From a virus, in IMG/VR virus record IMGVR_UViG_3300036820_000025, positions 1 to 52,855 of that record: DNA of 52,855 nucleotides. One strand, given 5' to 3'. Positions 2,462-42,810 of the stretch are shown piece by piece. The notes below the pieces were generated by a model. That model was not told where the DNA came from. It saw nothing but the letters and a program-made list of their open reading frames with translations, and did no database searches. How positions within the stretch are numbered: the first letter of the stretch is position 1; each line of letters starts with the position of its first letter. The translations under genes and the position numbers were made by a program.

Positions 2462-4756
2462 TCACTCGGTCTTAACCCATCGCTTCGCCTGCATGCCGTC
2501 AACCCGCATGTTACGGCTCTCGTACCCCAACTGTTTGAGGGTCCGCGCGACCCGCTTCTCGGCCTTGGCGTCCATGCGCTCTTTATTCATCAGCAGAGCA
2601 TCGCGCAGGACCTCAAACGCTGTGAAGGGGCGCGAGCAGGGGGCCGGCACAACCTCGCCATTAGGGGCCGCTGTGGGCGTTATGAGCCACTGCCCGATGA
2701 CAGTCTCCCACACGTCGCGCTGCTCATGGCGGGAGTGACGGCCTTTCGCAAGGCGCTCGGCCTCCTCGAACTCAACGCCCGGCAGGTCGAGCATTTTGCG
2801 CATTCGGTAGATGTGCGCGCCCTCGGCCCATAGTTGATTGCGGTCGCGCTTTATCAGCTCGCGTAGGATTTGCCCGATTTCCATTGGCAACCATCGGCGC
2901 TGCCCGGTCTCATCGAGCGGTAGATGCTGCTCTTGATTGGTCGTTGCAAAGAGCATCCCGCGACGAGCGTACCGAGTCGGTAGCGTCTGCCACTTCTCGA
3001 CCCACTCCTCGTGTGTGCGCGTAATAACGCGCTTGATGTGCTCGGCTGAACCTGTGGATACGTTGACCATCTCCGCAATTTCCGACACGAGCTTGCCCTT
3101 GAGCATGCGCTTAAAATTGTCGTCATCTTTGGATAGGTCGAGCCCATCGGTAAAAAACTCAGGGTCGGGCACCAATGATTTAAGCGCCGAGGATTTGTAT
3201 AGCCCTTGCTGCCGCGAGAAAAACGTCGGCACCATGTCGAGCTGACAACCGGGCTCGAAGATACGCGAGGCGAGCCCCGACCAAATGTAGCGGCTCACAG
3301 CCTTGGCGTACTCGTCGTCGGCTGCGCCGCAGTAGTCGGCCATGAACCTATCGACGCGCGGCACGCCATCCCACGCGAGGGAATCGAGCCACACCATTGC
3401 GCTGTCGAACTTCAGGCGATCCGCCACGAGCGCGAGCGCATCGCGCATCATGTCTTTGCCGATTGCCGCATAGCGCAGCTCACGTTCGAGCTTTTCACGC
3501 AGCGCAGTCATATCGTTGTCGGTTAGGCGCATCCAATTGGCGCCGCCGTCCCGCGAAATCATGATGCACCCCCGGAACTCATCGAACCCGACCATGGTCT
3601 GCGTCTGCGAGCCTAACGTCTTAACGAGATTGGGCAGGCTGGCCTCGGCGAGCCCCTTACCGTTGATAGTAAGGTTTGCCATCGTCGTGGCTGTGACCGG
3701 AGGCGGCGGGGGCTCGGCTCCGACAATCTCAACAGTTAGAGTAGTGCCGGTTACAGCGTCCGGCGTCCCGCTTAGCTGCGCCGATGAGGTCTCCGCGGGG
3801 GGTGCAGAAGACAACGGCAGGGACTGCGCGGGCTCAGCATACCACTGCGTTTGAGACGCGCAAGCCCGCAGTATCGTGCCCCGGAAGTAATCGGGCCGGT
3901 GCCACTTGTCGCGCTGCAGTCCCTCGCATTTCCACATCAGCCGGGCCATGCGTTCGCAATCGTTGCCGGTCCAAAACGCGAGATGATTCGCGAGCGCGAT
4001 GTCGGCGCCCGAGCGGTCCCACGCATCGTGTCCGTTCTGCGTGGGGAAGGCTCGCGACAGAACATCAACGTTGGCCGTCCACAGAGCCGCGAATGAGGCG
4101 CCCTTGCCGAACGCGGCCTGTGCTGAGGTCGAGCGCATGGCCCGGTCTAGGAGCGCCGTATCGTCTGCAGGGCCACGCCACGCGGCGACAGGCTTGTCGG
4201 TCCATTCGACGGTGCCGTCGGTTTCCTCGCGCGGCGGGAAGTAGGCGGCAAGGAACCGCAATAGAGTGCCGGTACAGTCGGTCAGCACTGAGCCCGAAAT
4301 ATGCTGCCCAAGAGCGATGAACCGCGCCTCGGTATAGCACTCGGCCCGGTAATCGCTGTTGCGCGTGCGATGGTCGGGCAGCTCGCCGTGATAAGCACCG
4401 ATGATATGACCGCCCGTGCCGCTGACACTGCGCTCGACGTAGGCGTCGGGGAACCACTGCAGGAACGCGGCCACGTGGGGCTGCCAGCCGCCGGAGGGCT
4501 CGACGCATTGGTCAAAGTCGATGGCGAATCGTCCTGACTCGCGCGTAATGACGATGCCCACGCCGTAGCCGGCGCCCCATTGCTCGGCCCACATCGCGGC
4601 CTCGGCCGGCAGCATGTGCGTAGCAGGGTCCTGCGCGTTGATGGCTTCGCCCGAGAGCGGGTCAATCGGTATCTTGTCCGTCTTGCCGTTCTCTCGGGGA
4701 ACGAGCTTGTACAGGACGAACAAGCGCCGGTTTGACAGCTCGTCAAGTATGCTCAT
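2462..4756 (-). CDS. Primase-polymerase/VirE-type helicase, probable replication initiator
   Basis: The protein has 764 residues. The N-terminal part looks like an archaeo-eukaryotic primase (prim-pol) fold: FAIDFD (residues 77-82, acidic pair D80/D82), SGTGGH (112-117) and RFIALGQH (145-152). A linker rich in Pro (about 305-355) leads to a VirE/VapE-type ATPase domain (about 440-640) with ATTNQEQHLPLDETGQRRW (604-622). The P-loop is odd: SRQQGLYKSS (514-523) replaces GxQGxGKST and lacks the first Gly. It should prime DNA and unwind the origin. The start overlaps the -10 of an antisense promoter; its own ribosome site is weak. The TetR-type gene lies 55 bp upstream. Confidence 0.85.
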   Translation of the reverse strand: MSILDELSNRRLFVLYKLVPRENGKTDKIPIDPLSGEAINAQDPATHMLPAEAAMWAEQWGAGYGVGIVITRESGRFAIDFDQCVEPSGGWQPHVAAFLQWFPDAYVERSVSGTGGHIIGAYHGELPDHRTRNSDYRAECYTEARFIALGQHISGSVLTDCTGTLLRFLAAYFPPREETDGTVEWTDKPVAAWRGPADDTALLDRAMRSTSAQAAFGKGASFAALWTANVDVLSRAFPTQNGHDAWDRSGADIALANHLAFWTGNDCERMARLMWKCEGLQRDKWHRPDYFRGTILRACASQTQWYAEPAQSLPLSSAPPAETSSAQLSGTPDAVTGTTLTVEIVGAEPPPPPVTATTMANLTINGKGLAEASLPNLVKTLGSQTQTMVGFDEFRGCIMISRDGGANWMRLTDNDMTALREKLERELRYAAIGKDMMRDALALVADRLKFDSAMVWLDSLAWDGVPRVDRFMADYCGAADDEYAKAVSRYIWSGLASRIFEPGCQLDMVPTFFSRQQGLYKSSALKSLVPDPEFFTDGLDLSKDDDNFKRMLKGKLVSEIAEMVNVSTGSAEHIKRVITRTHEEWVEKWQTLPTRYARRGMLFATTNQEQHLPLDETGQRRWLPMEIGQILRELIKRDRNQLWAEGAHIYRMRKMLDLPGVEFEEAERLAKGRHSRHEQRDVWETVIGQWLITPTAAPNGEVVPAPCSRPFTAFEVLRDALLMNKERMDAKAEKRVARTLKQLGYESRNMRVDGMQAKRWVKTE

Positions 4757-4759
4757 AAT
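4732..4759 (+). promoter_or_regulatory. Near-consensus sigma70 promoter, antisense to the primase start
   Basis: TTGACA (4732-4737), a 16-bp spacer and CATAAT (4754-4759) match the sigma70 consensus at 11 of 12 positions, the best promoter seen in the window. It points rightward, against the primase gene whose ATG is at 4756-4754. Transcription would start about 4764-4768 and meet the terminator at 4783-4813. A TGAC/GTCA inverted pair (4733-4745) resembles a shortened form of the genome's operator. Confidence 0.65.
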
Positions 4760-4765
4760 GGCCGG

Positions 4766-4813
4766 GTGCGTGCGGTGACATTGGGCGGGCTCTCACGGGC
4801 TCGCCCTCTTTTT
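4766..4813 (+). ncRNA. Predicted OOP-like antisense small RNA (about 48 nt)
   Basis: This is the stretch between the strong rightward promoter and the terminator. There is no room for a coding gene. The RNA would be complementary to the 5' leader of the primase mRNA and to the last bases of the TetR-type gene. The arrangement resembles lambda OOP RNA, a short terminated antisense transcript between a regulator gene and a replication gene. Existence and start site are predicted, not shown. Confidence 0.5.
4783..4813 (+). terminator. Intrinsic terminator, rightward
   Basis: GGGCGGGCTC (4783-4792) pairs with GGGCTCGCCC (4797-4806) through ten pairs (two are G-U) around the four-base loop TCAC. 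TCTTTTT follows. The T-run is on the + strand, so it stops rightward RNA although both flanking genes run leftward. This is why a dedicated rightward small RNA is proposed. Confidence 0.75.
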
Positions 4814-5108
4814 ACGCGGCCAGTATGCGCGCAGCTTTACGCTTCAGTGCCTCCGGGGCTTTTCTAGTTGGCAGGTAGTCGATTGCGAGCCCCTGCGCGA
4901 CGACTTCTAATACCTCGTGCTCGATGGCGTGGGCCATGATCGCGGCGCGCATATCCCGCATTGTGCCGAAATGGTACGACACAGTGCCCTCGACGCAGCC
5001 CGCGGCCTTGGCGATTTCAACGCGAAACACCCGCATAAACCCTTTCTGCTTCGACAGATTGACGGCCGCCTGCAATATGGCGTTTTTTAGGGCGACTGTG
5101 TTTTGCAT
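4812..5108 (-). CDS. TetR-type DNA-binding domain protein, candidate master regulator
   Basis: The protein has 98 residues. Residues 8-60 match the N-terminal helix-turn-helix of the TetR family (ILQAAVNLSKQKGFMRV, then EIAKAAGCVEGTVSYHFG, then MRAAIM). The usual C-terminal ligand and dimerisation domain of about 120 residues is absent; only a 38-residue tail remains. The gene's own upstream region carries the palindrome TTGACGTAGCCGTCAG, of which seven further copies lie at other phage gene starts. It is the only recognisable DNA-binding regulator here, so I propose it binds these sites and autoregulates. Whether it represses or activates cannot be told from sequence. Confidence 0.75.
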   Translation of the reverse strand: MQNTVALKNAILQAAVNLSKQKGFMRVFRVEIAKAAGCVEGTVSYHFGTMRDMRAAIMAHAIEHEVLEVVAQGLAIDYLPTRKAPEALKRKAARILAA

Positions 5109-5114
5109 GTGCGT

Positions 5115-5144
5115 ATCCTACTGTAGCGCTGACGGCTACGTCAA
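5115..5144 (-). promoter_or_regulatory. Leftward operator/promoter of the TetR-type gene
   Basis: On the minus strand the order is TTGACGTAGCCGTCAG (5144-5129), CGC, TACAGT (5125-5120), overlapping TAGGAT (5120-5115), then ATG at 5108. TTGACG and TAGGAT are 18 bp apart and could be -35 and -10, which would make the mRNA leaderless. Alternatively AGGA (5119-5116) is a ribosome site and the start lies further upstream. The block is almost the same as that at 44093-44064. Confidence 0.6.
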
Positions 5145-40094: not shown

Positions 40095-40350
40095 TGCGGT
40101 ATCTCCAAGCCAGCGCGATCCACACCGTATTGCCGGCGACAATGAACAGGCCGCCAGTAAACGAGAGCCACTGCGCGAGATGAGGGTAATAAAACAGGTT
40201 CCAAAATCCCCACGAGGTAAAGAATGCTGTTGATTTCAGCGACACGCCGCGCGTGCAACGGTCGCGTGATATGCGGCGAACGTTGCCCCAAATCGCAACG
40301 CCGCCCCATCCCTCGAACAGCCCATTTATCAGGTCGGGCGTGTGGATCAT
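40087..40350 (-). CDS. Small conserved membrane protein
   Basis: The protein has 87 residues from ATG 40350. It has DLINGLFEGWGGVAIWGNVRR, FFTSWGFWNLFYYPHLAQWLSF and a second hydrophobic stretch FTGGLFIVAGNTVWIALAW. The pattern is known to me from small phage membrane proteins encoded among nucleotide-metabolism genes; the role is unknown. It overlaps both neighbours. Confidence 0.65.
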   Translation of the reverse strand: MIHTPDLINGLFEGWGGVAIWGNVRRISRDRCTRGVSLKSTAFFTSWGFWNLFYYPHLAQWLSFTGGLFIVAGNTVWIALAWRYRNV

Positions 40351-40985
40351 ACCGAGAGCGGGCGCAGCAGCCGGTACTCGGTTAGAAATCGGTCGTATGC
40401 CTCGCGCGGCTCCCAGCACCGTTGTAGGTCATACCGGCTCGTGCCCTCGTAGAGTTTCAGCGCGTAATCACGCATGCCGGGCTCGGGCTGCAGCCAATCC
40501 GCGGTGACATTGTGGCCGAGCAACTGTTCGGCTTCGATGTACAGCGCGCACCAATCGGCAAATTTGACGCCCGCGCTTACCGTGGGCGGCAAACCGAACT
40601 GCTCACGCATCGCGTGTTCGATTCGCGTCTCGAACGGCCGATAGTCCTTGACCGTGACTTTCCACGGGGCGGCCATGTCGGACACGTAGCCCTCGTGGGC
40701 GTCGTGCATCAGCCCCTCATAGGGCGTGCCGCCGCGCATAGCGATAGCCGGCTCATACATCAGCGTTGCGACGAGCACGCCATGCTGAGCGACGCTGTAG
40801 CGCCGCTGCACGTGGCCGGTAAACCGGCACTGCATCGAAGTCGCCCACGCCATTTCGCGAATATCGCATATGGGGCGCTGGCAGTAGAATTTGCGAGTGG
40901 CGAACCCGCCCTTATCGTCGGGGCGGATGGCAACGACGTATTGGTCGTCGCCGTCAGCCTCGTATGTCTCGGCTGCATTTTTCAT
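40347..40985 (-). CDS. HD-domain nucleotide phosphohydrolase (YfbR-like)
   Basis: The protein has 212 residues. The HD metal ligands are visible: SVAQH (64-68, His 68), MHDAHEG (93-99, H94-D95) and a later Asp. The PWK sequence after VSDMAA is typical of YfbR-like 5'-deoxynucleotidases. It would dephosphorylate dNMPs or pppGpp-like substrates. It stands alone among head genes, between the small membrane protein and a metallophosphoesterase. Confidence 0.8.
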   Translation of the reverse strand: MKNAAETYEADGDDQYVVAIRPDDKGGFATRKFYCQRPICDIREMAWATSMQCRFTGHVQRRYSVAQHGVLVATLMYEPAIAMRGGTPYEGLMHDAHEGYVSDMAAPWKVTVKDYRPFETRIEHAMREQFGLPPTVSAGVKFADWCALYIEAEQLLGHNVTADWLQPEPGMRDYALKLYEGTSRYDLQRCWEPREAYDRFLTEYRLLRPLSV

Positions 40986-41006
40986 GTGTGCGTGCGGTCC
41001 TAGTTG

Positions 41007-42497
41007 TTAGAGCGGTGCGCGGTATTCCCCGTCGATGATGAACAGGAGCTGCCGCTTGTCGTTGGCATCGAGCGCGCAATGCGCCTGATGCCACGACGAC
41101 GGGCCGGCGTTGTACTCAAGCCGAAGCCCGGTAGACGTGCCGACCTGCGTGCAACCCTCGTCCTCACCCGGGCTGTGCGGGTGCCCGGTAATCGTCTTGA
41201 CGCCGATGCGGCGTAGATTGCGGATTGAGCCCCGCGCGCCGTTCGGGCCGCGGTTGCCGTGCATGCCAAGCTCGTGGGTGCCAAGCATAAAAGACTCGTC
41301 CTCGTCGAGTATTCGAGTCTGCGGCATGTTGTAGCGGCGCATCCAATATGTGAATGCGTTCGGGTACTCGGTGCCCTTGTTGGTCAGCTTGGTATTGCGG
41401 ACCATATGCAGCGCCGTCTCAAGATACCATTCGGCGTTGGTAGGGTCCTCGCGCCAATCGGCATCGACGATGTACCGCGTCAAAAAGTCATCGTGGTTAG
41501 AGGTAACAATCACGTTCTGCGTGTCTTTGATCGTGTGCGCTTCGATGAACCGGCGCAGCGACTCCAAGCTCGCGCGCACAGAATCGAGGCCACCAAAGCG
41601 CTTTGCCACGCGATTGAACGGATTGTGCTTATGATGCGGGTTGACCGGGTAACCATCCGTCGAATCGTGCAGTAGGATGTTCCGCGGGCGCAGAACGCCA
41701 ACCATGCCGCCTTGTCCGTATGTGGCGCGAATGACGCCCTTGTCGGTGAATGGGTCATGCCAATCCCCCGTGATGAGCCCGAGCGCGCGGGGCGCCTGTT
41801 GCACGCTGTCGGCGAAATACTGTTCGCCGCGCGCGGAATCAATCGCCGACTTCGAGCGGCCATCGAAATGAATGCGGCGCATGTGGAACCGCTTTTTATT
41901 GACGACTTCCACGAGGACGCACGACAACGAGTGATGAAACTGGCCCACGCGCCCGGCGCGCGTATCGCTGTAGTTCTCGACCGTGCAAGAGCCCGAGGTC
42001 ATCAAAATTTTCGCCATGCGATTCTGTGGCGTGGCGATGGTGCGCGTCTGAATCTTCGGGTGTGCAACTATCGCGCTGGCCGCGCCTGAGACGGCCTCAA
42101 AGCCCGTCAGCGGGTCCGCGGCCGTGGGCTGTATCTTGATGTCTCCGAGCAGCGTAAGGTTGTCGTTCAACGGCTGGCGCACATTGGCGAGAAACGGCCG
42201 CGTTTCCTTGGCCCAAAAATCCTTGCCTTCCTGCGAGCCGACCCAACGCGACGTGGGGTTTTTATAGCGCATCGGCAACACCACGAGGTCGGCCCCGCGG
42301 TGCTCGGCGATGCGCTGTAGTACGGCCCACCACTCCGCGTGTACCGGCGTCGAGTTCTGCGCGGCGACGACGAGCAGCGTTTTAACACGCTTGCCGAGGC
42401 GCCACGGGAAAATCGCTACGGGCGATTTGTCCTCGTAGAGCGGGTCATTCTCCCGCGTGAACGTGTCAAGGTTGCGGGGTGTCGTTGAATTGGTCAT
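41007..42497 (-). CDS. Metallophosphoesterase-like protein (A1-like)
   Basis: The protein has 496 residues from ATG 42497. Calcineurin-type metal-binding motifs appear in order: GDWH (244-247), LHD (276-278), SNHDD (333-337) and GHPH (about 448). The N-terminal 230 residues are all-unknown but include IFPWRLGKRVKTLLVVAAQN. The closest pattern I know is the T5 pre-early A1-type protein found in several phages, implicated in host DNA degradation. That link is tentative. It overlaps the next gene by 32 bp. Confidence 0.7.
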   Translation of the reverse strand: MTNSTTPRNLDTFTRENDPLYEDKSPVAIFPWRLGKRVKTLLVVAAQNSTPVHAEWWAVLQRIAEHRGADLVVLPMRYKNPTSRWVGSQEGKDFWAKETRPFLANVRQPLNDNLTLLGDIKIQPTAADPLTGFEAVSGAASAIVAHPKIQTRTIATPQNRMAKILMTSGSCTVENYSDTRAGRVGQFHHSLSCVLVEVVNKKRFHMRRIHFDGRSKSAIDSARGEQYFADSVQQAPRALGLITGDWHDPFTDKGVIRATYGQGGMVGVLRPRNILLHDSTDGYPVNPHHKHNPFNRVAKRFGGLDSVRASLESLRRFIEAHTIKDTQNVIVTSNHDDFLTRYIVDADWREDPTNAEWYLETALHMVRNTKLTNKGTEYPNAFTYWMRRYNMPQTRILDEDESFMLGTHELGMHGNRGPNGARGSIRNLRRIGVKTITGHPHSPGEDEGCTQVGTSTGLRLEYNAGPSSWHQAHCALDANDKRQLLFIIDGEYRAPL

Positions 42498-42810
42498 CGG
42501 CCTTCTGCTTTGCTCGTGCCTTCGCGGCAATCTTTGCGCTCGCGAACCAAATATGCTTCTTGCCGTCTGCGTTCTCACGCTTCACCACGACGATATGCGC
42601 GGCGAATTGGTCTCGAACTCGGGCAAGGTCCTTTGGCGCGCAGCGGATGCGTTTCTGCAGCTCGCTCTCGGCCTCGTACCATTCTGCGCCGAGCTTGAGC
42701 ATTTCAGCAAGCGCGGCCCGTATCTGCTGCGGGAGCTTCACGGCTTTGACGTGAGTCACGCCGAAAGTATCAAGCGAACGTGCGGGTGCGGTGTTTTTCT
42801 TAGCGGACAT
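42466..42810 (-). CDS. Hypothetical protein (114 aa)
   Basis: A mainly helical, Lys/Ala-rich protein (VKLPQQIRAALAEMLKLGAEWYEAESELQKRI). It overlaps the metallophosphoesterase start by 32 bp, so the pair is probably translated together. No family is recognised. A DNA- or protein-binding role is possible from the basic C-terminus. Confidence 0.6.
   Translation of the reverse strand: MSAKKNTAPARSLDTFGVTHVKAVKLPQQIRAALAEMLKLGAEWYEAESELQKRIRCAPKDLARVRDQFAAHIVVVKRENADGKKHIWFASAKIAAKARAKQKADDQFNDTPQP

Follow-up and report, generated by a model that had tools for sequence, protein, structure and literature searches.

In 14 related bacterial viruses of soil type, the space between a regulator gene and the primase gene holds signals for a predicted tiny RNA that is antisense to the primase gene. 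As a whole, these signals are best explained by a conserved, phage-encoded counter-transcribed RNA that would act as a brake on the primase, a reading to which we assign a probability of roughly 0.7. The window, i.e., the whole stretch of DNA analyzed, comprises positions 1 to 52,855 (52,855 bp) of the IMG/VR virus record IMGVR_UViG_3300036820_000025, with a GC content of 62.4%. An integrase was not found in the window phage. A leftward operon contains, in this order, genes for a helicase (8029–6347), p85, DUF1643, a nuclease-like protein, the regulator (5108–4812), and the primase (4756–2462). The gap between regulator and primase is 55 bp long. The antisense signals are located there on the plus strand, with the promoter lying partly within the primase gene. 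The features of this locus are as follows:

2462–4756, minus strand: VapE-type primase/helicase gene (PF05272, 3e-50; PF22763; phrog_256, phrog_1829)
4812–5108, minus strand: gene for a 98-aa TetR_N-type regulator (PF00440, 9e-8; phrog_8723)
4732–4759, plus strand: antisense promoter, TTGACA (4732–4737), 16-nt spacer, CATAAT (4754–4759); sigma70 match 11/12; at the equivalent position in 13 relatives
4783–4813, plus strand: intrinsic terminator, hairpin (4783–4806) and U-tract (4807–4813), reaching to the regulator stop codon; kept, with covariation, in 14 phages
4766–4813, plus strand: predicted antisense RNA of ~48 nt, with its start placed 7 nt after the −10 hexamer
4766–4782, plus strand: predicted single-stranded 5′ tail GUGCGUGCGGUGACAUU with the conserved core GUGCGUGCGGUG
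4766–4777, minus strand: primase translation-initiation leader CACCGCACGCAC, without a Shine-Dalgarno sequence at normal spacing; predicted cis target

The original prediction had described a rightward TTGACA-16-CATAAT promoter matching the sigma70 consensus at 11 of 12 positions, a T-tailed terminator soon after the start site, leftward genes on both sides, and a transcript of about 48 nt antisense to the primase leader. Promoter, terminator, and gene orientation were confirmed, and the RNA itself is now strongly supported by the conservation of its signals in 13 relatives. A sigma70 match of at least 11/12 occurs a single time in the 52,855 bp, where 0.08–0.12 are expected per window (order-1 and order-3 Markov models). 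The −35 hexamer is inside primase codons, and the −10 hexamer overlaps the primase ATG. The hairpin has 10 pairs, eight of them GC, and a loop of 4, and is followed by TCTTTTT. Its ΔG is −20 kcal/mol, which is only modestly below that of shuffled sequences (z = −1.7). The predicted 48-nt RNA thus consists of a 17-nt tail, the hairpin, and the U-tract. It is the full complement of the regulator–primase gap to within ~10 nt of the ATG (less in several relatives), and overlaps the regulator gene by at most ~3 nt, within the stop codon.

Syntenic relatives were retrieved with the polymerase, helicase, and primase, the latter two as alignments. When the regulator or the primase was used as a single protein, scans gave distant relatives only or no close ones, and a scan of genome contigs gave remote helicases only. 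The group consists of the window and 13 IMG/VR relatives, all of them uncultured contigs that are not independent of each other. For promoter scoring, sigma70 use by the hosts was assumed, and an E. coli-like matrix was applied. Hairpin anchors in the score tests were picked by eye, and an automatic detector was used independently of them.

A terminator facing the same way follows the regulator stop in 14/14 phages, right after it or, in phages of the L025, L033, and L034 type, a few tens of bases away. In L004, L024, L025, L026, and L027, a hairpin lies directly or a few tens of bases past the regulator stop with the T-tract on the antisense strand, and L033 and L034 are likewise. A role of the hairpin as a leftward (sense-strand) terminator was rejected, as that strand carries no U-tract in any group member. 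The distance from the end of the −10 hexamer to the stem is 18–28 nt in 14/14 phages. In the first eight (window included), the −10 hexamer ends 21–27 nt before the stem, with p = 0.001–0.06 each against all same-strand windows and p = 0.004–0.04 against the starts of the remaining ORFs at these loci. In the latter comparison, 14 hairpin-less primase homologues gave p = 0.14–0.84. Six members found after the rule had been set (L118, L119, L123, L124, L127, L136) all passed (p = 0.003–0.034; Fisher 1.3e-7), and three hairpin-less relatives in the follow-up round failed (p = 0.75–0.93). When the worst p of each subclade is taken, the location test gives 6e-9 (3e-7 if the window is left out). With the 14 phages aligned at the stem, the promoter score averages 11.05 bits at −23, and this mean is at most 2.41 bits beyond −60 to +20 in a 1-kb span. 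The detector for promoter plus terminator found 14/14 group junctions and 0/31 other primase junctions. Its background was 26 units elsewhere in 1.2 Mb of strand, corresponding to ~0.0035 expected per 160-nt junction.

The original prediction would have fallen had relatives not kept the signals, and it has now passed this check. The primase tree agrees with a single gain and a single loss of the antisense unit, the latter apparently in L160 and L120. L160, which has a hairpin without a T-tract, gave a promoter p of 0.08. L030, with the same kind of hairpin, gave p = 0.034 at a distance of 40 nt and was excluded from the group for the missing T-tract. Around 9472–10015 of L030, the primase frame seems to be cut after ~150 codons; the T-tract is gone and the CACCGCACGCAC leader is kept, a pattern that possibly reflects decay of the unit. 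Isolated phages with a close primase (above ~46% identity) were absent from the best matches, and the isolates examined lack the antisense unit.

The promoter overlaps coding sequence, and coding constraint was considered as its cause. The −10 hexamers in the group vary (CATAAT, TTTAAT, TATTCT, TAGAGT, TAGACT, TATTAT, TAGTGT, TAACTT, TACTAT) and sit on differing codons; in L027, the hexamer precedes the start codon. L004 differs in that its promoter overlaps the beginning of an inserted HNH-like gene rather than the primase. This gene (2789–3160 of L004) is placed between regulator and primase, with antisense promoter and terminator at its start. On resampling of synonymous codons, the antisense promoter beats the alternatives (Fisher 6e-10; worst per subclade 7e-4). 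Single phages give weak values (window p = 0.22; L118 p = 0.61). Hence, coding constraint is rejected as the cause for the group, but not for the window taken by itself. With differing hexamers and codon positions, and with codon choice in favor of the promoter, coding constraint does not fully account for it.

The hairpin covaries. Its outer pairs are kept in 97 of 98 cases across the group, and all seven outer pairs show changes on both sides; slid hairpin controls pair at 26–58%. Pairs were counted on arms from individual folds, as the MAFFT RNA alignment misplaces the hairpin arms. The most conserved part of the RNA is the tail core GUGCGUGCGGUG. The sequence complementary to it, CACCGCACGCAC, stops no more than about 12 bases short of the primase ATG, and a perfect tail complement of 12–22 nt is present at the primase start in 7/7 phages scanned. 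None of the 14 primase leaders, read by eye, has a Shine-Dalgarno sequence at 5–10 nt, and some subclade members have weak G-rich runs at a distance of at least 11 nt. The predicted RNA length in the group is 40–63 nt.

The conserved promoter, terminator, and spacing, the covariation, the complementarity, and the codon bias can be read from the sequences themselves, whereas we infer that the RNA is made, its exact ends, its timing in infection, its block of translation, the autoregulation by the TetR-like protein, and the trans target described below. In the proposed mechanism, an RNA of ~40–63 nt would be driven by a sigma70 promoter of the host type that is embedded in the first codons and start region of the primase gene. 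This RNA would have a short tail at its 5′ side, followed by a terminator hairpin, and stop at or close to the end of the regulator gene. Its predicted tail perfectly complements the leader that directly precedes the primase start and lacks a Shine-Dalgarno sequence. Most likely, the RNA pairs with the regulator–primase mRNA, which would cover or abut the primase ribosome landing site and block primase translation; RNase III cleavage possibly follows pairing. An autoregulating TetR-like protein would limit transcription of the same mRNA, giving a dual brake like CopG/RNAII of pMV158.

The putative promoter of this regulator was located upstream of its gene:

5115–5144, minus strand: regulator promoter, TTGACG-18-TAGGAT, with the operator TGACGTAGCCGTCA (5130–5143)

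The −10 hexamer of this promoter (TAGGAT) ends 6 nt before the ATG (window 5108–5144), and the arrangement is similar in L004, L024, L026, and L027. The regulator mRNA would accordingly be leaderless or nearly so. The exact palindrome TGACG-N4-CGTCA overlaps the regulator promoter and occurs eight times in the window, where 0.03 are expected. The 14-bp sites are at 269, 5130, 8044, 13635, 44079, 46099, 47533, and 52135, each promoter-like and upstream of a gene or operon, and probably represent a phage-wide regulon of the TetR-like protein. The phage of L004 also has the palindrome at its regulator promoter and elsewhere. Action of the TetR-like protein on its own operon promoter via TGACG-N4-CGTCA is plausible from these sites, and a double control like that of pMV158 is therefore plausible as well. 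An element TGTGAYGC followed by R, mostly GGTC (CRP-half-site-like), was observed ~13–25 bases upstream of the operators at 269, 13635, 46099, 47533, and 52135, that is, at a near-fixed distance before 5/8 operators. These five promoters lack a clear −35 hexamer and may need an activator.

A shortened palindrome within the antisense promoter had been taken as a hint of control by the same regulator. This suggestion did not survive. The palindrome, TGACA-N3-CGTCA, is one base shorter than the operator, and it is absent from the other 13 promoters. TGAC-N5-GTCA alone is expected 0.6–0.95 times per window. Control of the antisense promoter by the TetR-like protein was rejected on these grounds.

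A second candidate partner of the RNA tail is found far from the primase:

40347–40985, minus strand: deoxyribonucleoside 5′-monophosphate phosphatase-like gene (phrog_318, 2e-40; T5 dmp-like)
40988–40999, minus strand: candidate trans target GACCGCACGCAC, 2 nt before the dmp-like ATG, with 11 contiguous pairs to the RNA tail

The dmp-like gene is present in three group phages, namely the window phage and those of L136 and L119. Pairing of the tail lies across or directly beside the dmp start and comprises 11 pairs in the window, 12 in the phage of L136, and 15 with one bulged base in that of L119. When the 128–214 ORF starts of each phage are ranked by pairing energy with the primase set aside, that of dmp comes first in 3/3. 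The dmp proteins of the other two phages are 42–45% identical to that of the window; hence, the shared leader is not the result of simple recent copying. In the dmp-carrying phages, the RNA tail probably also pairs with the dmp mRNA in trans. At 40347–42578, the adjacent leftward genes resemble the T5 A1 DNA transfer protein (phrog_1745, 9e-127) and T5 dmp (phrog_318), and may represent a T5-like host-takeover pair in an otherwise different phage of ~50 kb. A more far-reaching reading is that one 12-nt tail of an RNA of ~50 nt, transcribed from a promoter within the first primase codons, acts in cis as a repressor of the primase and in trans as one of the dNMP phosphatase. Together with the TetR-like repressor, this would make up a plasmid-style copy-control circuit in tailed phages, with a new RNA family coupling two takeover steps. 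We put this reading forward tentatively, at somewhat less than even odds.

The most serious of the other explanations concerns the leader. As CACCGCACGCA is conserved upstream of both the SD-less primase starts and the dmp starts, it could be kept as a translation-initiation or protein-binding element common to both genes rather than as an RNA pairing site. The RNA would then exist, and its pairing with dmp would have no regulatory role; the shared dmp leader could be such an element instead of an RNA target. The motif is not general to the other genes of these phages, which speaks against this explanation, and we regard it as possible though doubtful. Transcription itself may matter instead, by collision with leftward polymerase or by opening or priming of a nearby origin as has been proposed for lambda pO, which affects replication independently of oop RNA (PMC3985674). 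The position of the promoter at the start of a replication gene would suit this, yet the conserved 5′ tail, the complementarity to the dmp starts, and a covarying terminator so near the start are left unexplained, and we consider it unlikely.

An action like that of OOP, in which the antisense RNA mainly destabilizes the regulator mRNA through an RNase III-sensitive duplex at its 3′ end, draws on the cII-oop-O layout and on complementarity to the bicistronic mRNA from the regulator stop codon on. However, oop targets cII mRNA, and the RNA here overlaps the regulator by ~3 nt at most. What is conserved in it is the tail across the primase start and not the stretch at the end of the regulator. 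We hold this, too, to be improbable. The terminator may also merely block rightward read-through, with the promoter being accidental. The genes at 1168–2357, left of the primase, are convergent with it, and the scan gave no strong plus-strand terminator between 2357 and 2462. A promoter that is favored by codon choice, stands at a near-fixed distance in 14/14 phages, and is absent from terminator-less homologues makes this very unlikely. Chance would account for the window signals insofar as a single 11/12 match is expected about once per ten such windows; it is refuted at the level of conservation by the 13 relatives that keep the signals, including the out-of-sample success, and is given almost no weight. 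The counter-transcribed brake on the primase remains our preferred reading.

The setting of replication by antisense RNAs is a classic theme in plasmids; in phages, the long-known example, oop, has a lysogeny regulator as its target. The original prediction had likened the RNA to oop. The likeness holds for the layout of regulator gene, antisense RNA, and replication gene, with the promoter at the start of the latter and an own terminator. It does not hold for the target: lambda oop RNA acts on cII mRNA, not on O-P mRNA (PMC3985674), whereas the phage RNA here scarcely reaches into the regulator gene and lies over the primase leader. Unlike oop, it is not complementary to the 3′ region of the regulator transcript, as it ends within the stop codon.

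RNAII of pMV158 is the closer working model. It is 48 nt long, requires a 17-nt 5′ tail for efficient inhibition, complements the copG-repB mRNA immediately upstream of atypical initiation signals, and acts with the repressor CopG (PMC4485353). In the 14 phages, the predicted counter-transcript is likewise opposite the gap of an operon of repressor and replication gene, and complementary from about the repressor stop to just upstream of a non-SD start. The architecture predicted for the window is also alike, with 48 nt, a 17-nt single-stranded tail, one terminator hairpin, and a U-tract. The pMV158 repressor acts on its own promoter; here, the operator overlaps the regulator promoter, and we infer binding. 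The systems differ in the regulator (TetR_N-type, not CopG), the replication protein (VapE-type primase, not RepB), and the carrier, a tailed phage of ~50 kb. The phage RNA further has a GC-rich conserved tail, a promoter within the first codons of the replication gene, and the dmp mRNA as a candidate second partner. No sequence relation to the pMV158 RNAII system was found.

R1, which combines CopB with an antisense RNA, is compared at one level only: the gene for a transcriptional repressor shares its mRNA with a gene farther downstream that is under replication control (PMC5717011). The virulent phage PAK_P3 also has antisense RNAs, mostly long and over structural genes; no primase gene is mentioned (PMC4933390). 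In the window, no Rfam covariance model matched at its gathering score, and the best sub-threshold match was sbrA (17.1 of 45 bits, E 0.27). An antisense RNA to a phage primase was not found in the literature searched, in which subscription papers were thinly covered, and this is weak evidence of novelty. We class the predicted RNA as a new family that would work like plasmid counter-transcripts and belongs to neither the oop nor the pMV158 family.

The rule of promoter plus terminator can serve to search further phages for RNAs of this kind concealed at the starts of genes, and the 14 natural variants are a ready mutational series for tail pairing. If the proposed brake is true, some tailed phages throttle their own replication by a plasmid-like double brake.
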